From Brevibacterium sp. S22 (GTDB lineage Bacteria; Actinomycetota; Actinomycetes; Actinomycetales; Brevibacteriaceae): a stretch of DNA of 64,000 bases. The stretch's first letter is position 1; each line of letters starts with the position of its first letter. Positions 8,149 to 63,169 of the stretch are shown here, piece by piece. Made by a program: the position numbers and the translations under genes. Location of the stretch: NCBI RefSeq assembly GCF_004745485.1, contig NZ_RHFG01000002.1, forward strand, positions 124,001 through 188,000, given 5' to 3'. Under the pieces are notes generated by a model. That model worked only from the letters and a program-made list of their open reading frames with translations, made no database searches and was not told where the DNA came from.

Positions 8149-8884
8149 GCCTGGATCCACCGATCGGGTTACGTTCGTGACAGTGCGTTAACATCGAGGA
8201 TGACCCTGTGGTCAGGGTAAATGGAACTTACCGCAGCTCGTCTTCTTTCAGACCAAAAAGCATCTCTTAGATGCAACTATCTAATCGCCCCGGCGAAACG
8301 TCAGCGACCTTCTACGATCCGAATCTCGTGTCGATCGCCGGCTCGTACCTAACGACAAAAGTGCCAATCCAGGCGAAAGCGTCACTTCTCTTGTGGCCGG
8401 GATGGTCGGCGGCGCGGATTCCATTGATGACATAACCCTACTCAAACAAGACAGCACTGGCGCAGTCTTCACGAACCGACACACGCAGTCGATGCCGTCG
8501 ACTCCAGGAGCCTGACCAAATTGAGCAAACAGCTCCCGCGGGCGACCAACAGCCCGGCGAGGTGGATCCAGGCTTATATGACCGGCCAGTATCATGATCT
8601 AGCTCAGTACCGGAGAGAAGCTGTGGCTATCACCGAGTCTATGAGATTGCGACTCATTCACGACCCTGTCGCGAAGGTCATCGGCGGCCAACTGCCAAGT
8701 TTAGCTTCGGAGCAATAGATTACTGGTCTGCCGTTTGTAGATCAAAGTGGATCTTCCTTAATACCACTTAGGTCTTGCAAGATTGAGGGACCAATTCGGC
8801 TTACCTGCACGGAGCAGTGCAGCTTCCGTCAGGGTCAGCCGATAGCCAAGGTCCGCTCATTGTCTTTAAATGGAGTAGCACTAA
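8149..8884 (+). pseudogene. IS1380-like transposase remnant and degenerate DNA
   Basis: Within this 730-bp gap, plus-strand frames read FYDPNLVSIAG near 8310 and, after a frame change, SLVAGMVGGADSIDDITLLK near 8384-8450. Both resemble the N-terminal region of IS1380-family transposases (LVAGMVAGADSIDD-like core). The frame is broken and the catalytic region is absent. A short frame at 8521-8718 (MSKQLPRATNSPARWIQAYM...) is open but I do not recognise it. The operon promoter is presumably within about 150 bp before 8885. Confidence 0.5.
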
Positions 8885-9625
8885 ATGACATCGACACCAC
8901 TTTCGAATACATCACGTACCACGATATCAAGCAAAGGGCCAAGGGAACTCCTGGCACAAACTGAACGACAAAATCTTTATGACGTGCTTGACGCTGGCTT
9001 CATCGGCAATCTTGGAGTGACGCTTGACGAGCGTCCCCTCGTGGTCCCGACTGCATATGCACGTAACGGGGACAAAATATATATGCATGGGTCAAGCGGA
9101 GCAAGCACTTTGCGTGCTGCTAATTCAGGGGCCCTAGTCTGCTTCACAGTCACGCATGTAGACGGGATTGTCTACGGACGCGCCGTTTTCAACAATGCAA
9201 TGAACTATCGCAGTGCTGTAGTTTATGGAGTCGCTCGGGCATTAACGGATTCGGACGAACGCCTCGTTGCACTGCGCCACTTCAGCGAGCGACTCGCCCC
9301 AGGAAGTTGGGATACTGCACGCAAACCGAATTCGAAAGAGCTTGCACAAACAACTCTTCTGGAACTATCGCTCGAGGAAGCAAGTGTAAAGATCAGCGAT
9401 CGGTTTTGCAGAGTAGCAGATCAAGATCTAGACAGAAATCAGACATGGTCGGGAGTGTTGCCAATTCCAGCACCGCAGTTCGGAGAACCCATCACGGACC
9501 CAAGTCTTGCTCACCCGGTCCCCTCGGTCCCAGAAGCGGTTTATTCGCGCAACTACCCAGAAGCGCCGCCTCGCAAATACTCGGGTACGGCACAGGCCAA
9601 AGAGAGCAGTGTAAGTCAAGTATGA
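8885..9625 (+). CDS. Pyridoxamine 5'-phosphate oxidase family protein (FMN-binding split barrel)
   Basis: A 246-residue protein resembling the flavin/nucleotide-binding split-barrel family PF12900. The core has [60 protein letters not shown], then [20 protein letters not shown], the usual order in that family. The exact reaction is unknown; relatives bind FMN, F420 or haem. It is the first gene of the operon, and its TGA overlaps the ATG of the ABC ATPase (ATGA at 9622-9625), so it is translationally coupled to a transporter. The C-terminal 60 residues (Pro-rich, [19 protein letters not shown]) are lineage-specific. Confidence 0.8.
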
Positions 9626-12704: not shown

Positions 12705-14152
12705 TGCATGAACAACTTGATAGACTAACTCAACAGCAAGAGAGAACTGACAGCGATCAGCTCTATTATAAAGACGCTTCAAGTCTCTGCGATGGCTATT
12801 CCAGAGGATCTTTCACTCCTGTGGACGTGGTTAAGGCTTGCATAGATCGCATTGCAAAGCTGGACGGAACCTTGAATGCAATGGTCCATTTGGACGCAGC
12901 TCGAGCCATTCGTCTTGCAGAAGAATCGGAAGATCGATACGCTAACGGCCTCTCGCTAGGGCCGCTTGACGGTGTTCCCGTGACGTTGAAAGAAAGCGTC
13001 GCCGCCGCTGGTTGGCCAGTAAGCGTGGGGTCTGCAGCCCTCGACGCAAAAATTGTTTCTGAGAACGCGCCACTTGTCGATCGTCTGCTGGAAGCTGGAG
13101 CTGTTTTGGTGGGTACAACTAGGATGCCCGACCACGGCTGGAAAGGCGTGACCAACGGGCCCCTAGGCGCAGTACCCAGCCCGTGGGATTTGAATACCAA
13201 TGCGGGGGGTTCGAGTGGTGGTGCCGCAGCAGGACTCGCTGCTGGTTACACTCCGATAGCCATTGGGTCGGATGGGGCCGGCTCGATTCGCTTTCCGGCC
13301 GCATACTGTGGGGTTGTGGGTCTAAAACCAACTTATGGACGAGTGGCAGCCTTTCCACGGGGCGCCGCCGGCACCTTGACTCATTATGGTCCTATGGCTA
13401 GGTCGGTGGGTGACGTCGAATCTTTGTTCAAAGTAGTTGCCCAACCCGATGAACGAGACTACACATGCTCGCCTGTGCCGGATAGAGAATCCCTTCCGCC
13501 ACTGACAGGTAGTTTGAAAAAGTTGCGAGTCTATCAATGGGTCGCTCCAGAACTCACGGTAGAGAAAGATGTCCTTGATGCGGTCAACCACACAGCAGAG
13601 CTTCTAGAAGCGCACGGTGCGACTGTTCATAGAGGCCAGATCGACACCACTGGCATTCTGGAGGCACATACAGCTCTTTTCGCGGGGCCGATGCAGGCCA
13701 TTATTGATTCTGTAGGACCTGATCGTGTTGCTGACCTCGATCCGGAGATGGTGAAGTTCTCCAGACGTGCTTCGGATATCAGCGTCGTTGACTTCATTCG
13801 GGCACAGCAGTATCGGTCAAAACTGGCTGAACAGCTCACCCATCTACAGCAACATTACGATGTGATCCTATCACCGGTCTCGACAACCTCGACTGCCCCC
13901 CTTAACGCTCCTATCCGACCGGATGCAACGCCTGATCGCTCACCGTTTGCGTTTGTTCACAATCTGACAGGGCGCCCCGCACTGACAATACCCATACAAC
14001 TGTCGCAGGGGACCAGGCCGGTTGGCATTCAACTGTCCGGTCGTCGTTTTGAAGACGAACACCTACTTCAGGTGGGTCGCTGGTTGGAAAGATTCGAAGG
14101 GACCTTTCTGCAGCAAAGCTCAAACGGGAAACTACTGGATATTAATGCATGA
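12701..14152 (+). CDS. Amidase signature family hydrolase
   Basis: A 483-residue amidase-signature enzyme. The Ser-cisSer-Lys triad is readable: Lys97 in PLDGVPVTLKES, cis-Ser at 171/172 in NAGGSSGGAAAG and nucleophile Ser195 in GSDGAGSIRFPAA. Length and motif order match GatA-like and aryl/fatty amidases. No gatB or gatC lies nearby, so a catabolic amidase is more likely than tRNA amidotransferase subunit A. Coupled translation with the transporter and the aminotransferase suggests that it opens an amide bond in the imported compound. It starts at GTG 12701; ATG at 12704 is the alternative. Confidence 0.92.
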   Translation: MMHEQLDRLTQQQERTDSDQLYYKDASSLCDGYSRGSFTPVDVVKACIDRIAKLDGTLNAMVHLDAARAIRLAEESEDRYANGLSLGPLDGVPVTLKESVAAAGWPVSVGSAALDAKIVSENAPLVDRLLEAGAVLVGTTRMPDHGWKGVTNGPLGAVPSPWDLNTNAGGSSGGAAAGLAAGYTPIAIGSDGAGSIRFPAAYCGVVGLKPTYGRVAAFPRGAAGTLTHYGPMARSVGDVESLFKVVAQPDERDYTCSPVPDRESLPPLTGSLKKLRVYQWVAPELTVEKDVLDAVNHTAELLEAHGATVHRGQIDTTGILEAHTALFAGPMQAIIDSVGPDRVADLDPEMVKFSRRASDISVVDFIRAQQYRSKLAEQLTHLQQHYDVILSPVSTTSTAPLNAPIRPDATPDRSPFAFVHNLTGRPALTIPIQLSQGTRPVGIQLSGRRFEDEHLLQVGRWLERFEGTFLQQSSNGKLLDINA

Positions 14153-33670: not shown

Positions 33671-33889
33671 ATGGCACACGACTTCTTCGTCGGCGACCAC
33701 GTGGGATGGAACTCGGAGGCCGGGCAGGTCTCGGGCACCATCACGAAGGTCCACACCGCCGATTTCGACTATATGGGCCACACCCGTCGCGCCTCGGCCG
33801 ATGACCCGCAGTACGAGATCAAGAGCGACAAGACCGATCACATCGCGGCTCACAAGGGCAGCGCTCTGCACCTCATCGACCACGAATGA
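33671..33889 (+). CDS. DUF2945 (TUDOR-like) small protein
   Basis: A 72-residue protein beginning MAHDFFVGDHVGWNSEAGQV and ending in a conserved YEIKSDKTDHIAAHKGSALH stretch, the layout of DUF2945/hypervirulence-associated TUDOR-domain proteins. It probably binds nucleic acid or another partner, but function is not established. The ATG has GGAGG 5 bases upstream. Its TGA overlaps the next ATG (ATGA at 33886-33889). Confidence 0.85.
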   Translation: MAHDFFVGDHVGWNSEAGQVSGTITKVHTADFDYMGHTRRASADDPQYEIKSDKTDHIAAHKGSALHLIDHE

Positions 33890-52875: not shown

Positions 52876-54012
52876 TTGACGAACACGAACCTACCGCGCT
52901 ACTCGCGCGGCGATATTTCTGAGATGCTGCCGAATATCAAAACTCAGATGGCCCGCCTGGGGCTCAGCGTCGGTGATACCGAAATCGCAGACTTCGATCG
53001 TGACTTCGAGCTCGGAGTCAGGCAGTTCCAGCAAGACCGTGGAATCCTCTGCGACGGCGTGCTCGGCCCTGAGACGTTATCAGAGCTCGAACAGGCAAGA
53101 TATCAGCTCGGCGACCGAGTCCTCCGATTCGACCCCGTCAGGGTCCTTACAGGTGACGATGTCGTCAACCTCCAAACCAAGCTGGCAGGACTCGGCTTCT
53201 ATCCGGGCCGGATCGATTCCGAGTATGCCGCTCGCACCGAGTCGGCTGTCAAAGAGCTGCAGATGAGTCTGGGAACAAAGGTCGATGGAGTGACGGGACC
53301 CCAGACCCTTCGAGGACTCACTGCCATCGACCGCAATCAGGACACAGGCAATCTCTTCGCGCTCCAGGAGCGAGCCCGCGTGGCGGCGTCGGGAACATCT
53401 CTCGTCGGCAGAACGTTTGTCATCGAAGCTGCTACTACAGTTGTAGATTTCCAGACCTTGCCGATGACTGATGAGCAGTCCGCCCTCGAACGCCAGATCA
53501 CTCTTGATATAGCAAGCCGCCTTGTTGGCCGATTGGAGGCCATCGGCGCGGGTGCACTCCTTTTGGAAGGCGACGCCGTTGAAGTCAACCGGGCGGATAC
53601 GCTTGATGCATCAGCCGTCATCACAGTCACAGCTGACGTGAGCAAGTCCAAGGACGCCAATGGCGTTGCAACCTTCTACTTCGGTCACGAGCGTCAGTCA
53701 GACCTCAACTCTCCGACAGGACAGAAGCTCGCGCAGCTCATCCAGGGTGAGGTCGTCGCTCGCACCGGAATGCTGGACTGTCGCACACATGCTCGTACGT
53801 GGTCATCTCTCAAGCGACTGAGAACCCCCAAAGTTCATGTCGTCAGCGGCTATCTTACGAACCAAGGGGACCGAGAAAGCCTGCAGGACCCCCATGTCAG
53901 GGATGCAATCGCTGACGGCATCGCAGCCGCCCTGCAGCGCCTCTACATCCTTGAAGACAAGGATCCGCAGACCGGCACGCTCAGCCTGGATGCCATCAAA
54001 GCTCTGAGCTGA
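52876..54012 (+). CDS. CwlM-like protein: two peptidoglycan-binding domains plus degenerate amidase fold
   Basis: A 378-residue protein from TTG 52876. Residues about 10-75 and 85-150 are PG_binding_1 repeats (FELGVRQFQQDRGILCDGVL, VVNLQTKLAGLGFYPGRIDS). The C-terminal half follows the amidase_3 fold in order, but lacks the zinc-ligand motifs: TFVIEAATTVVD replaces the DPGHGG region and VTADVSKSKD replaces the second His motif, while a Glu (SALERQITLDIASRL) remains. Position between trxA and parB is that of cwlM (Rv3915) in M. tuberculosis, an essential regulator of MurA. A non-enzymatic regulatory role fits the lost ligands. Confidence 0.8.
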   Translation: MTNTNLPRYSRGDISEMLPNIKTQMARLGLSVGDTEIADFDRDFELGVRQFQQDRGILCDGVLGPETLSELEQARYQLGDRVLRFDPVRVLTGDDVVNLQTKLAGLGFYPGRIDSEYAARTESAVKELQMSLGTKVDGVTGPQTLRGLTAIDRNQDTGNLFALQERARVAASGTSLVGRTFVIEAATTVVDFQTLPMTDEQSALERQITLDIASRLVGRLEAIGAGALLLEGDAVEVNRADTLDASAVITVTADVSKSKDANGVATFYFGHERQSDLNSPTGQKLAQLIQGEVVARTGMLDCRTHARTWSSLKRLRTPKVHVVSGYLTNQGDRESLQDPHVRDAIADGIAAALQRLYILEDKDPQTGTLSLDAIKALS

Positions 54013-54028
54013 TCGACCAGTCGTCACC

Positions 54029-54060
54029 GGCGCCGTGCTCCGTTGTCGGAGCACGGCGCC
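54029..54060 (+). terminator. Hairpin terminator after the cwlM-like gene
   Basis: GGCGCCGTGCTCCG and CGGAGCACGGCGCC are a perfect 14-bp stem around TTGT, 16 bp after the stop, followed by TCTCCT. Confidence 0.8.
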
Positions 54061-54275
54061 TCTCCTGGTGCGCCGAACCAAGATTCCTATACGCTTGTTC
54101 GTCTACCGGATCGGTCCGAACAAACCTCACCGAACTCAGATCTCGGTGAATGCCCCGACTTGGTTGTCTGCACTGGTCACATTGCGAACGCTGAGCAGCA
54201 ACACCGACCAGAACGCTACATCGGACGATAGCGTATAGCTCGCCTTCAGCCGGGTCAGAAACCGCAAGAGCTGCC

Positions 54276-54289
54276 GTTTCACGTGAAAC
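54276..54289. promoter_or_regulatory. parS: parS site 1 (perfect)
   Basis: GTTTCACGTGAAAC, a perfect ParB-binding palindrome; flanks C and A. Confidence 0.93.
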
Positions 54290-54438
54290 ATACTTTGAGA
54301 GCGTGTTGCTTCGCCACAGAAGTCTCGATCTAATCGAGCACGTCATAGAATGACTTGTAGGATCGAGCACTCGAATAGGAGACCGATCTGCGGACAGTCT
54401 CTACTAATGTGGACATTTCGCCAGTCACAGCCCATGCT

Positions 54439-54452
54439 GTTTCACGTGAAAC
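54439..54452. promoter_or_regulatory. parS: parS site 2 (perfect)
   Basis: GTTTCACGTGAAAC preceded by T, 163 bp from site 1. Confidence 0.93.
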
Positions 54453-54523
54453 TGCCCCTTCACCTTCCAATCCACGTGAAGGGGCGGATCTCTACCACGA
54501 AGCAGATTTCAGTGGCAGACGAT

Positions 54524-54537
54524 GTTTCACATAAAAC
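54524..54537. promoter_or_regulatory. Degenerate parS (two mismatches)
   Basis: GTTTCACATAAAAC: two G-to-A changes in the right half. Probably weak. Confidence 0.45.
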
Positions 54538-54991
54538 ACGGCGCCGGCACAAAGATTGCCAGGATTCCAGCGCCTCACGTCCTGTTCTCGCCAGGACACT
54601 CCGGTGTACATCCGCTCCGGCCTCCGCGACCCTCTGAAATCGATTTGTACGTACTCTAAGGCTGGATCAGGATAACGCGATGACAGTGGCCCGCCGATTA
54701 CGCAAACCAGCTCCCAACGCACGGAGTACTTCTCAACAAGTTCAATCTCAGACCGGGAGTGTCAGTCTGACTGATTCGGGAACGAGATAGGCGCGGGCAC
54801 ATCTACCTCGGTCAGAACCGCACCTAGAGATGGTCAATCTAACGTCCTCTGCAAGGCCATTATCAACAAGAATCCTCGACAACTACGCAGGCGGCTCCTG
54901 GGCACTCATCATTAAGATACCCTCAAATGCAGTTCACCAGGCCCGTCGACTCCCAAGTGTATGATCTGAATGGATTCAAAGCACTCACCGC

Positions 54992-55005
54992 GTTTCACGT
55001 GAAAC
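54992..55005. promoter_or_regulatory. parS: parS site 3 (perfect)
   Basis: GTTTCACGTGAAAC within CGTTTCACGTGAAACG, a 16-bp palindrome. Confidence 0.93.
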
Positions 55006-55146
55006 GCGACCCGATCTTGCGGGTGGGAGGCACGAATCGACGCCAATGATGCACTGCCCGCTCCAACCGGTCTTTAGGCATCCTCGCTTCCGTCTTCGGC
55101 AGCTCAATAGACACGACCAACGGAGGTATTGAAGAATCTGAGTGTC

Positions 55147-55160
55147 GTTTCACGTGAAAT
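55147..55160. promoter_or_regulatory. parS site with one mismatch
   Basis: GTTTCACGTGAAAT: final C to T. Likely still bound. Confidence 0.75.
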
Positions 55161-55497
55161 ATAGATCTACGGACGTTAGGCCAGACGTCGACCCCAGAGC
55201 TTAGCCGACTATGTACCCACCTGATGTTACTAACTACCCTCGGGTTGAGCTCTACAAGATAGTCCGCCAGCGGATGAATCAAACAAACACACCTGGTCAC
55301 CGAGATCTTATGGTTGCCAAGACAACCTAAGTAATGTCACAAAGCGCGGTCTCTAACGGAACATGACCTAGCGTCGTTACCGTTCGGACAAGTCCATGAC
55401 CAATCGCCCAATCTTCGACAACTGAAGGCACTACCCATAACCATTCCCCAGTGAGTGCCTTCTCCTCCTCGTACCTCAGCGCGTGGTTCTACCCGAG

Positions 55498-55511
55498 GTT
55501 TCACGTGAAAC
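55498..55511. promoter_or_regulatory. parS: parS site 4 (perfect)
   Basis: GTTTCACGTGAAAC, spanning two sequence rows; followed by A. Confidence 0.93.
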
Positions 55512-55747
55512 ATTCGTCAGACCATGCGGTTGTCGATCCCGGTGGGGCTAACCCAAACATATATTCGAACCTATCGTGGTGAGAGCCATGTGGCTGACTG
55601 GTCGGCGCCCAAATGAGAGAATACTCGCCCGAAGCCCGGGACCGCTATGTCCTTGTCGAATCATCCTAGTCACAATAGCCTCACTGACCAGCAAACGTTG
55701 CCGGGCACCGAGCGACTACCTGTACAAGAGTAGGAACCATATACCCC

Positions 55748-55761
55748 GTTTCACGTGAAAC
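55748..55761. promoter_or_regulatory. parS: parS site 5 (perfect)
   Basis: GTTTCACGTGAAAC flanked by C and G (16-bp palindrome). Confidence 0.93.
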
Positions 55762-56052
55762 GAACACGTCTTCTGTCCAATTTTCTAGAGCCGAGACGCG
55801 CGTTGCGATAACCGATCGACAGCAATAGACGGGACCACCGTTGAGCTTCTATTCACGACACCCCGCGCTCCGACGCAATCTCTCGTCCGTGGCCGGCAAA
55901 GGGGGAGAGAGACAGACGATAGACCTGTGCATCAGTGAACATTCCATATCAGGTTCTCTCACCTGCGCTACCAAACTGCTTCTAGCCAAACCGGACTCTG
56001 CCATCATCATCGAGCTATTCTCAACCGAAGGGTCGAGACTCAAACAAGGAGC

Positions 56053-56066
56053 GTTTCACGTGAAAC
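56053..56066. promoter_or_regulatory. parS: parS site 6 (perfect)
   Basis: GTTTCACGTGAAAC flanked by C and G (16-bp palindrome). Confidence 0.93.
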
Positions 56067-56246
56067 GGTATCCGCCTTCCAAACATGAGCCGCGCGGCAA
56101 CATACAAGCAGGAAGATTGAAGACACGACACTCGCCAGTTCCAGCACACAAGTATCAAACGAGGTACGTTCATTACCCGGATAATCCGGCGACATCATTC
56201 AGAAACCATCACTCGCGGACATACGGTGCCGCATCTGCAGGGAATA

Positions 56247-56260
56247 GTTTCACGTGAAAC
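56247..56260. promoter_or_regulatory. parS: parS site 7 (perfect)
   Basis: GTTTCACGTGAAAC flanked by A on both sides. Confidence 0.93.
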
Positions 56261-56622
56261 ACACAATCTCAACACCGAAATCGACAGCACCGCAGACTCG
56301 TCAAAGCCTAGACAAAGATCAATGGTAGTTCGCAGGTACACCGACATATCAAACACGAGCAGTCTCTGCGAGTCCTGGTCGCTGCATAAACCAGATCAGC
56401 ATAGTCATAAATACCACCCGTCAGCCAATGGACCGAAGACTATCTGATCCGCGCGTTCACGTGCAGTCTTCAACGTGCGCGAGGCTTGGTAAGCAAAGGG
56501 GCCGAAACGATGGGACGACCCGCAACCCCCTGCCGTGATGGTCTCAACCCGTTCCGCCCTTCGTGCAAACAGAGGCACGTTAACCCCAATTTAGGGGGCA
56601 GCCAACTACGAGAAGCCAGGGT

Positions 56623-56636
56623 GTTTCACGTGAAAC
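56623..56636. promoter_or_regulatory. parS: parS site 8 (perfect)
   Basis: GTTTCACGTGAAAC preceded by T, 166 bp before the parB stop. Confidence 0.93.
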
Positions 56637-56801
56637 GACCATCGCGCCACTGAATACAAATTGAGACTCAGCCAGATCCTGCCGAATTCGTCGGCCCACC
56701 TATGCCTGAGCCATCCAACTCGATGTATTCAGATCGGTTTGAATGCGAATGGGCCCCGCGAATACTGCAGCGGGGCCCATGCGGATAATATTGGTGCTTG
56801 G

Positions 56802-58679
56802 TTACAGGGCATCCTCATTGGAAATTCCGAGTAAGCCAAGAATGCGATCTAGATCCTCTTGGTTAGCAAATTCCACACTCAGCTTGCCCTTCTTCTTCCC
56901 AACCGAAATATTCACCTTGGTCTCGAGCCGATCACCCAAGCGTTCCGCCACAGCTAAGAACTCCGGTGCAACCTTCGTCGTTGCACGTGAAACATTGATC
57001 GAATCGCCCCGATTGAGGAGGACAACGGCTTCCTCGGAAGCGCGTACGGACAGTCCTTCTGCAACGATTCGCTGCGCAAGAACTTCCATGTGCTCAGGAT
57101 CGCGCAACCCCAGAATCGCACGAGCGTGACCGGCCGAGATGACACCGGCGGCTACCCTTCGTTGCACCAGAGGAGGAAGGCGAAGCAGCCGCAGCGTGTT
57201 CGAGATCTGAGGTCGAGACCGTCCGATGCGCTCAGACAGTTCTTCCTGTGTGCATCCGAAGTCCTCGAGCAACTGCCCGTACGCAGCTGCTTCTTCAAGG
57301 GGATTGAGCTCTGCGCGGTGGAGATTCTCCAACAGCGCATCCCGGAGAAGATCAGTGTCTTCGACATATCGGATAATCGCCGGAATGGTCGAGAGACCGG
57401 CATCTTTTGTCGCACGAAGACGACGCTCACCCATAATGAGTTCGAAGCGCGATCGGTCGCTTGGCTTCTGCCTGACGACGACGGGCTGAAGGACACCGAT
57501 CTCACGGATGCTGTGAACGAGTTCCGCGAGCAGATCTTCGTCGAAGACCGTACGAGGCTGTCTCGGGTTCGCATCGATGAGATCGACATCGATCTCCCCG
57601 AATTCCGTGTCAGGGATCGACTCGACGCCTTCGTAGTCATCTACGTCGCCTTCTTCGGAGTCCACCGGCTTTTGATCCTGGCCCTCCTCAGCGATTGCGG
57701 AAGAAGACCCGCCTTCTTCCGGAGCCTCGGATTTCATCTTGGAAGGATTCGTACTTGCCTTCGCACGGACCTCTTCGTCCTTGATCTCAGCCACGCCTGG
57801 CACTTCATCTGTAGTTCCCGGCTCGCCGGTCGTTCCCGATGCGTCCTCTTCGTCGCTGTCATCCTGGCGACCGGAGGAGGTGTAGACACCGGGATGCGTC
57901 TCACGAACATCTTCGTCAGCCGATGGAGCAGTGGCAGTGGTCGCAGCTTCAGCGCCTTTTATCGCCGACTCAGAGTCCACCGGCGGGGATTCCATCCGAA
58001 TATCAGTCGTCGGCTCGTCGGACGCGTTCGCTGACTTCTCAGCAGGGGGCGAAGCGGGGGACGAAGCGGACTTCACCTTCGATGCGTTTGCCTTTGTCGT
58101 CGATGACTTTGACGAAGTCGGCGTCTTAGCAGTGGCCGCATTCTTTCCTGTGGTCGTACTCTTGCCAGTGGTCGTAGTCTCGGACGCGCTCGTTTTCGAT
58201 CTCGAGGAGTTGGATCCAGAGGTCTGATGAGCAGAGGACGTGGACGCTGCCGACTTGGAGGAGGTTTCCTTCGCCGAACCTGCCTTGGCCTGCTTGGTGT
58301 TCGCCGTTCCCGCTTTCGATGCGGTCGACTTCGCAGTTCCCGATTTGGATGCGGTCGACTTCGCAGTTCCCGATTTGGACGTGGTCGACTCAGCGGAACC
58401 AGTCTTCGCGCTGGCGGCCTTGCCCTCTGCAGCCTTTTCGGAGGACGTGGTCGCCGTCTTCGTCGTACCCGCGGCCTTCGGCTTCCGTCGGCGAGAAGAC
58501 TGCATAGACGCTGCCGGATCGGTGCGCGCAGCACGCGAAGTCTTCGCCTCGCCCTCACTATGTCCATCTTCCGTGTTCCCGCCGGAGAAGAAGACATCAA
58601 CCGGACGATCATTCGAGTTCGCGTCGGGGATCAATGCTCCGAGCCCGCGGCCGAGGCCCCTCTTCTTGCGTTCAACCAC
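56802..58679 (-). CDS. parB: Chromosome partitioning protein ParB with very long linker
   Basis: A 625-residue ParB, about twice the usual size. Residues 1-20 ([20 protein letters not shown]) are the ParA-contact motif. Residues 21-360 are low complexity: first Ser/Thr/Ala/Lys-rich with tandem [10 protein letters not shown] units (101-120), then acidic. The core follows: [16 protein letters not shown] (361), CTPase motif GERRLRA (417-423), [10 protein letters not shown] (451-460), the parS-binding helix-turn-helix [20 protein letters not shown] (477-496) and the C-terminal dimer domain. It loads on parS and slides as a CTP clamp. The start overlaps parA by 8 bp. Confidence 0.95.
56980..56993. 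promoter_or_regulatory. parS-like site inside parB (one mismatch)
   Basis: GTTGCACGTGAAAC within the ParB C-terminal coding region; one T to G change from the perfect site, 344 bp beyond site 8. Confidence 0.65.
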
Positions 58680-59598
58680 GACTTACTCCTCGATTCGCAA
58701 TTTCTTCAGCAGCTTCCCGATACGAGAGGGCACCGCTGGAATGTGGGTCATAAGAGATCACGGTCTGTCCGTAGCTCGGCGCTTCGGAGATCCTCACCGA
58801 TCGAGGAATCGCCGTGCCCAGCACCTGCTCCGGGAAATGAGTGCGCACATCCTCGGCGACCTGAGCGCTGAGATTCGTGCGTGCGTCATACATCGTCAGC
58901 AGAATCGTTGTGATCGCAAGTTCAGGATTGAGATGTTTCTGAATGAGCTGAATGTTCTTCAGCAGCTGGCTGAGGCCTTCGAGAGCATAGTATTCGCACT
59001 GGATCGGGATGAGGACTTCGCGGGCGGCCACGAAGGCGTTCACGGTCAGCAGACCCAGGCTGGGCGGGCAGTCGATGATGATGTAGTCGACGCGGTCTCC
59101 CGCCGCCTCCTCTTCCTTCAGGTAGATGCCCAAGGCACGCTGGAGTCGCTGTTCACGCGCAACGAGCGATACCAACTCGATCTCCGCACCGGCAAGATCG
59201 ATGGTGGCCGGCACACACTTCAGTGTTTCGAAGTCAGGACACTGAGCCACAGCCTCCCGCATCGGCACATCGTCGATGAGGACGTCGTAGATGCTCGTGA
59301 CCTCGGAATAGTGGTCGATACCCAAGGCGGTGCTCGCGTTGCCCTGCGGATCGATGTCGACGAGCAGGACATTGAGCCCTTGATTGGCAAGGGCCGCAGC
59401 GATGTTCACCGCCGTCGTGGTCTTTCCGACGCCACCCTTCTGGTTCGCGATCGTGAAGATACGGGTCGAGTCCGGCCGTGGAAAGGTTGTCTGCGACAGT
59501 CGATCCGCACGCCGGTTGTCCCGTGCAATCGCGGCACCAATGGGAGACGACTCATCCATGATCGGCATAGGGCGCACTCCATCATCCATCGGTTTCAC
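58672..59598 (-). CDS. parA: Chromosome partitioning ATPase ParA
   Basis: A 308-residue ParA/Soj. Deviant Walker [22 protein letters not shown]' motif [15 protein letters not shown] and Walker [18 protein letters not shown]. An N-terminal extension of about 40 residues precedes [10 protein letters not shown]. It binds nucleoid DNA with ATP and pulls ParB-parS. The frame opens at GTG 59598; in-frame ATGs at 59589, 59568 and 59559 are alternative starts and none has a strong ribosome site. It overlaps parB. Confidence 0.95.
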
Positions 59599-63040: not shown

Positions 63041-63169
63041 TCGTCCACAAGTCACACCCATGTAGTTTTCCACAAGCTTATCCACCAGTGTGGAGATTCA
63101 CTGGGCTGAGTCGGCAAGAGTCCACATTCTGTGGAAAACTATGTGGAAGTCATGCACAGGTGTGGATCA
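63041..63169. promoter_or_regulatory. DnaA-box cluster upstream of dnaA
   Basis: Eight 9-mers resembling TTATCCACA lie in 130 bp: TCGTCCACA 63041, TTTTCCACA 63066, TTATCCACC 63078, GAGTCCACA 63118 on plus; TGTGGAGAT 63089, TGTGGAAAA 63130, TGTGGAAGT 63142, TGTGGATCA 63161 on minus. It can serve dnaA autoregulation and/or be part of the origin; the dnaA-dnaN gap is outside the window. Confidence 0.75.

Follow-up and report, generated by a model that had tools for sequence, protein, structure and literature searches.

A compact, gene-free parS island beside parB as a probable chromosomal centromere in Brevibacterium

In most bacteria, parS sites are reported to form clusters within 5 to 40 kb, an arrangement thought to limit SMC collisions (PMC8357415), and a review raises the question of why they cluster at all (PMC7333895). 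Chromosomal systems are described as often having separated sites, with a single cluster being more common on plasmids (PMC10387095). Here, we describe the parS sites in a 64,000-nucleotide stretch of Brevibacterium sp. S22 (contig NZ_RHFG01000002.1, positions 124,001 to 188,000; hereafter the window), where they form a gene-free island between parB and an amidase gene. Corynebacterium glutamicum, also an actinobacterium, likewise has ten parS near the replication origin (oriC), nine of them intergenic, with ParB binding and SMC recruitment shown (PMC7083940). However, these are spread over 35 kb and several intergenic regions, whereas the ten sites of Brevibacterium lie within 2.4 kb of one gap. 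Myxococcus xanthus is reported to have 24 parS in all (PMC3778016), and 22 are described as lying in one cluster of about 3 kb, which is located upstream of parA at a distance of about 4 kb (PMC3899335). That array is also close to parAB and oriC and is denser than the one in Brevibacterium, but has a different consensus, TGTTCCACGTGGAACG, and a different position. Thus, the island is compact given that typical clusters cover 5 to 40 kb, yet it is not alone, since dense clusters occur elsewhere. Clusters of parS near parAB are known already, and the Brevibacterium island is a compact, gene-free variant of them. Our literature search for parS together with Brevibacterium returned no title on the subject; subscription journals lay mostly outside that search, and a prior description is possible.

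The parB-amidase gap of the window holds eight exact parS, one copy with one mismatch and one with two (Table 1). A first reading of this DNA from its letters alone (the sequence-only reading) had listed these sites, and both their positions and their nine spacings (163, 85, 468, 155, 351, 250, 305, 194 and 376 bp) proved exact. The array spans 2.4 kb in the gap, or 2.7 kb when a further one-mismatch copy inside parB is included, and is not spread over 5 to 40 kb with sites partly in coding DNA. Across the whole genome, a draft of 72 contigs totaling 4.51 Mb, sites with up to two mismatches number 11 and all of them fall between 54276 and 56993; no equal density was found elsewhere. By comparison, a reversed control pattern occurred six times per strand genome-wide. 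At up to three mismatches the window has 13 matches, against a mean of 2.2 and a maximum of 6 in shuffled sequence. The flanking ParB is canonical: it has the ParB_N, HTH_ParB and ParB_C domains, its top PDB match is Spo0J (6sdk), Spo0J and ParB are its best structural-database matches, and parA adjoins its gene.

Several copies of the parS palindrome stand beside an adjacent parA-parB pair, near the probable oriC and confined to this place, as is predicted of a chromosomal centromere. We consider it likely that the stretch is one: a ParB-loading platform of about ten parS in gene-free DNA, in which the number and spacing of the sites, and not the letters of the spacers, would be selected. ParB-CTP (cytidine triphosphate) clamps would enter the DNA at each parS and from there slide along the spacers and flanks. 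With about ten such loaders in 2.4 kb, roughly 250 bp apart and uncrossed by genes, one dense ParB condensate would form, which ParA would pull and which would offer SMC a single entry point 6 to 9 kb from oriC. Such a condensate and such a compact entry point, on DNA clear of genes, would be the likely benefit of the arrangement. Selection would then keep the site number, the rough spacing and the gap itself, leaving the spacer letters free. In vitro condensation is reported to require 5 to 7 parS, with a force that grows with their number (PMC8299390), and bound roadblocks are reported to halt sliding ParB (PMC10387095).

The island is retained throughout the core of the genus. We searched 57 Brevibacterium genomes, of which 56 gave a parA place; 55 fetched loci plus the window were available, and 52 were measurable on both flanks. 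Five had no measurable gap, owing to a missing parA match (G051), the absence of parB from the stretch (L112) or a contig end before the amidase gene (L072, L103 and L108). The measured loci comprise 36 core loci, with ParA at least 89.9% identical to that of the window, and 16 basal loci (ParA 74 to 84%). Brevibacterium was the genus of all 27 best named loci (L003 to L029) in the genome collection, and ParA identity was 98.7 to 99.0% in B. iodinum, B. permense, B. sediminis, B. linens and B. epidermidis. Exact parS were found in 54 of the 57 genomes, with 2 to 10 in each. Every core locus has a gap of 2,312 to 4,063 bp (median 2,891) with 8 to 14 sites of up to two mismatches (median 10), and in all 36 the genome-wide count of exact sites equals the count in the gap. 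The comparison of intergenic length and site number among relatives that the sequence-only reading had proposed thus came out in favor of a conserved locus. Gap length and site number are correlated in the core (Spearman 0.80).

Basal species are arranged differently. Their 16 gaps range from 54 to 2,317 bp. Six are shorter than 300 bp, and the corresponding stretches hold 2 to 6 exact sites with only 0 to 2 in the gap; where the gap is 54 to 102 bp, the sites lie in or beside parA and parB. Gaps of 1.7 to 2.3 kb contain 1 to 6 exact sites. In the three remaining genera of the family, too, sites occur in or near parA and parB; L201, one of their loci, has a further four within a gap of 1.3 kb. 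Phylogenetic contrasts (on a midpoint-rooted FastTree tree of ParA, ParB and amidase) associate longer gaps with fewer exact sites upstream, in or beside parA and parB (r −0.47, P = 0.0005), and with more sites in the gap (r 0.32, P = 0.02). These contrasts, with the placement of sites in basal species and the other genera, suggest that parS moved out of the genes while a dedicated gap was growing, in one or several events and in a direction that we infer.

Several individual loci deserve mention. The genome G021 (locus L086) has no exact parS anywhere; its gap has nine one-mismatch and five two-mismatch sites, several of them GTTTCACGTGGAAC, and the specificity of its ParB may have shifted. 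Among 381 sites with up to two mismatches in the 36 core islands, the mismatch T4C/A11G (half-site GTTCCAC) leads by a wide margin with 84 cases, and on the parB strand there are 56 cases of A11G, twice the 28 of T4C. In 12 loci (L077 to L088), the last parS ends 15 to 17 bp from the gap end at the amidase stop, and is anchored while the other sites drift. The island of L089 carries a 1,135-bp insertion (8216-9350) between two parS. The inverted ends of this insertion, 32 nt long, are 91% alike, and it encodes a 346-amino acid transposase matching Pfam rve, rve_3 and LZ_Tnp_IS481; it is an IS481-family insertion that the array has naturally tolerated. The basal genome G023 (L101) has ten exact parS genome-wide and only two in its 18-kb parAB stretch, either a scattered arrangement or an artefact. 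Basal relatives with a gap below 1 kb have a ParB of about 375 to 465 amino acids. We do not claim that island length is coupled to ParB length: the raw correlation (Spearman 0.52 over 52 loci) used ParB lengths of L100 and L104 from before remeasurement, and the contrasts, which used the remeasured ones, gave r 0.25 and P = 0.07.

The parS variant inside parB is also retained. Its codons, GTT TCA CGT GCA, are each kept in 34 to 36 of the 36 core loci, whereas the commonest codon has a median share of 0.54 at 204 invariant residues in the C-terminal part of ParB. Codons this nearly frozen across the core genus suggest that the variant is probably still used, and that this coding stretch doubles as a probable ParB site.

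Sites and spacers are conserved very differently. Between close relatives, the island is a sharp dip in conservation between its flanking genes. In five pairs compared over 250-bp windows, the flanking genes are mostly 0.8 to 1.0 identical (falling to 0.64 to 0.72 in the ParB linker when the window is compared with L063, the most distant pair), and the inner island is 0.45 to 0.67 identical in four pairs and 0.70 to 0.79 in the closest, with intermediate values at its edges. Of 13 pairs chosen among related species, 12 have spacer identities of 0.40 to 0.59; shuffled islands align at 0.40 to 0.43, the random level, and the value set against L065/L066 is 0.41 to 0.42. In close pairs, silent (4-fold) sites of neighboring genes are better kept: spacer identities of 0.45 (L065/L066), 0.55 (L059/L064) and 0.73 (L081/L082) compare with 0.66 to 0.92, 0.73 to 0.92 and 0.78 to 0.91, respectively. 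In the same three pairs, 9 to 10 parS align together at identities of 0.95 to 0.97 (0.95 in L065/L066). As a control, 15 other intergenic regions from two genome pairs (at least 60 bp, lengths within 1 bp) are 0.87 to 0.99 identical; ten further regions of unequal length, at 0.49 to 0.97, were excluded from the controls. We do not claim that the island is hypermutated, because the spacers change about 1.2 to 2 times as fast as parB and amidase 4-fold sites, a hand estimate from the better-aligned pairs, and relaxed constraint alone may explain this.

The distances between sites are better kept than the letters. Over nine related pairs, the median difference in length between corresponding parS-to-parS intervals is 1 to 16 bp, while 26 to 56% of the spacer bases differ. 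In L081 and L082, the gap is exactly 2,845 bp in both, with 713 substitutions and 24 indel events between them. The sequence-only reading had called the spacings irregular; they are in fact statistically more regular than random placement would give, with a coefficient of variation (CV) of 0.45 in the window against 0.83 (P = 0.019). Among 28 thinned core islands (sites of up to two mismatches), the mean CV is 0.48 against 0.82, with 27 islands below expectation and 21 at P < 0.05. Restricting the count to sites of at most one mismatch gives 0.51 against 0.82, with 15 of the 28 islands at P < 0.05. The median spacing in the core islands is 248.5 bp, and spacings below 100 bp number 24 where 68 are expected. 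The sole island above expectation is L089, whose interrupted interval is about 296 bp once the length of its insertion is removed.

The gap appears to hold little besides its sites. No gene had been seen between the amidase and parB stop codons, and none emerged: Pfam gave no match at E 0.1 in the 7 of 10 gap open reading frames (ORFs; at least 60 amino acids, up to 138) that were scanned, the single Rfam match (E 0.58) is far under the gathering score and at chance level, and the spacers are unconserved in relatives. No tRNA was found in the window, and just one DnaA box was found across the 36 islands. A second shared spacer motif was rejected, since 6-, 8- and 10-mers fell within the shuffle range in the 28 thinned islands with parS masked. 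An origin of the array by tandem duplication was likewise rejected, as parS-masked self-comparison (blastn, E 0.01) gave no internal repeats in 35 of 36 islands.

Outside Brevibacterium, we surveyed 80 loci of the order, picked by hand for genus breadth and covering up to 20 kb each around parB: 77 from 145 genomes outside the genus with a ParB match (among the matches listed), and three of the same family. One of these loci (L203) is a short contig. Exact sites occur in 62 of the 77 order genomes with a known count, and 52 of these 62 hold all of them within the fetched stretch. Twenty-one loci have at least seven sites of up to one mismatch within 3 kb. In 16, at least seven sites share one gap free of conserved genes, meaning no ORF with relatives in two other loci, a definition under which lineage-specific genes could hide; these belong to five other families (f13, f3, f11, f6 and f19). 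Such islands, including that of Brachybacterium L030, resemble ours in having 7 to 12 sites (up to one mismatch) in one gap of 0.9 to 5.8 kb beside parAB. Their placement varies, downstream of parB in some and upstream of parA in others, and some consist mostly or only of variants with one or two mismatches (L030 and L182) or are near-tandem (L143). The gene-free parS island architecture is therefore recurrent, although the survey is silent on the number of origins. Hence, the dedicated, compact non-coding locus of the sequence-only reading stands, as the sole one in its genome and one kept across the genus core, while the rarity that it implied does not. Likewise, its contrast with the scattered parS of other bacteria holds against clusters of 5 to 40 kb and fails against the five other families and the Myxococcus cluster. 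Near-tandem parS upstream of parB number six in L143 (28-bp steps) and five in L173 (54-bp steps). In L030 (Brachybacterium epidermidis), three DnaA boxes (13906-14116) follow soon after 12 degenerate parS downstream of parB. Literature searches for parS with Brachybacterium, Dermabacter, Microbacterium or Actinomyces gave no parS title among the matches listed.

It is rather unlikely, in our judgment, that this is an ordinary origin-proximal cluster, in which sites have built up around parAB through mutation and drift and the length of the gap is incidental. Bacteria usually lose unused DNA, and here the gap of 2.3 to 4.1 kb is kept in all core loci despite spacers that are saturated between distant members. 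Over-dispersed sites, with spacings below 100 bp at about a third of expectation, are not what such accumulation should produce, nor is the resistance of parS to substitution beside spacers that show none. An ordinary cluster would nevertheless fit the commonness of parS clusters near parAB in the order, the variation in site number from 8 to 14 between species, and reports that a single site can suffice elsewhere (PMC7083940). It is very unlikely, we think, that the gap descends from a gene or mobile element that decayed before parS accumulated there. Its guanine-plus-cytosine (GC) content of 0.54, against 0.60 in the flank, is as expected of DNA freed from coding selection, and one relative's island did receive an IS481-family insertion. 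However, the seven scanned ORFs show no Pfam trace, internal repeats are missing from 35 of 36 islands, basal species with gaps of 54 to 102 bp show nothing to decay, and gene-free islands of other families sit upstream of parA.

The last of these points also bears on a role in gene expression. Because other families place the island upstream of parA, its position relative to promoters is not constant, and in Brevibacterium it lies at 3' ends and not at promoters; it is therefore highly improbable that the array mainly tunes the flanking genes, with ParB spreading silencing parAB or the amidase gene as feedback, instead of serving segregation. The array does abut the 3' ends of both genes, and the ParB relative KorB is reported to silence genes as a sliding clamp (PMC11790492). 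A hidden functional RNA or small protein as the real reason for the gap is scarcely credible: ORFs of up to 138 amino acids are present, but spacer identity in 12 of 13 pairs is far under that of the flanking genes, the best Rfam match is at chance level, and no k-mer is shared above shuffles in the 28 islands.

A centromere whose site number and spacing are selected remains our preferred account, and several observations weigh against it. In C. glutamicum, one parS of ten is reported to suffice for near-normal segregation (PMC7083940), so that strong selection on ten sites is not obvious, and separated rather than clustered sites could favor SMC loading (PMC10387095). The random-placement null ignores shared ancestry, which thinning by eye to 28 islands reduces but does not remove. 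Regularity is weaker for exact sites only (CV 0.55 against 0.77; 4 of 24 islands at P < 0.05), and of the 21 dense arrays outside the genus only 6 reach P < 0.05 for regularity. Between distant relatives, spacers (0.40 to 0.44) are at the random level and 4-fold sites fall to 0.29 to 0.50, so that only close pairs carry the argument on rates. Counts of indels rest on alignments close to saturation, with no neutral control. Furthermore, L065/L066 (G019/G043) have a second stretch without recognized shared genes (5,449/5,139 bp, at 33852 in the joined L065 stretch), one of the ten regions of unequal length, that aligns at 0.49. The hairpin after the parB stop exceeds all mid-island windows in 32 of 36 loci, but on the amidase side this is so in only 11 of 36; strong hairpins at that end are not general, and shielding of the island from transcription is thus only half supported.

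Table 1. Features of the parS island and its surroundings (window coordinates).
Feature	Position	Strand	Remarks
N-acetylmuramoyl-L-alanine amidase gene	52876..54012	+	PG_binding_1 and Amidase_3; convergent with parB
Gene-free parS island	54013..56801	.	parB-amidase gap, 2,789 bp; bounded by the stop codons of two convergent genes
Perfect 14-nt inverted repeat	54029..54060	+	possible amidase terminator
parS, exact	54276..54289	.	
parS, exact	54439..54452	.	
parS-like, 2 mismatches	54524..54537	.	
parS, exact	54992..55005	.	
parS, 1 mismatch	55147..55160	.	
parS, exact	55498..55511	.	
parS, exact	55748..55761	.	
parS, exact	56053..56066	.	
parS, exact	56247..56260	.	
parS, exact	56623..56636	.	
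17-nt inverted repeat (88%)	56743..56786	-	probable parB terminator
parB, 625 amino acids	56802..58679	-	N-terminal GLGRGLG motif, long linker, ParB_N, HTH_ParB, ParB_C
parS variant, 1 mismatch	56980..56993	.	within parB coding sequence; retained at the DNA level across the core genus
parA	58672..59598	-	AAA_31 Pfam match
Two DnaA boxes, opposite orientation	63066..63138	.	probable oriC; boxes at 63066 and 63130; 6-9 kb from island

The gene order, which we take to be trxB, trxA, amidase, island, parB and parA toward the probable oriC, presumes the ORF readings from which trxB, trxA and the other names toward oriC were taken, and oriC itself was marked by what we assume to be the DnaA-box pattern. 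ParB residues of about 20 to 350 (57630-58630) form a linker of more than 300 residues, rich in Ser, Thr, Ala and Lys, between the N-terminal motif and the CTPase domain. Relative to its flanks, the island is rich in AT, and its + strand shows a GC skew of about −0.12, a pattern that would be expected if unselected DNA is replicated leftward from the probable oriC.

A broader proposal is more tentative, and we would place it somewhat short of an even chance. Core Brevibacterium, and perhaps independently several other actinobacterial families, would have a "spacer-defined" centromere, a dedicated gene-free locus in which selection acts on parS number and on a spacing of about 250 bp, and the intervening DNA is free to change as fast as silent sites or faster. 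The spacer would be needed for its length, as room for ParB sliding or SMC entry, and not for its letters, and the sites would have left the neighboring genes as the gap grew. Within the single genus Brevibacterium, nature supplies a graded series: at one end the gap is 54 bp, with four sites in or beside parA and parB, and at the other it reaches 4 kb and contains a dozen. Such a series, combined with spacing that is conserved across unconstrained sequence, opens the contributions of site number, spacing and gene-free room to direct testing. In addition, each island amounts to kilobases of DNA that is probably neutral and fairly constant in length, and so lends itself to reading mutation bias.

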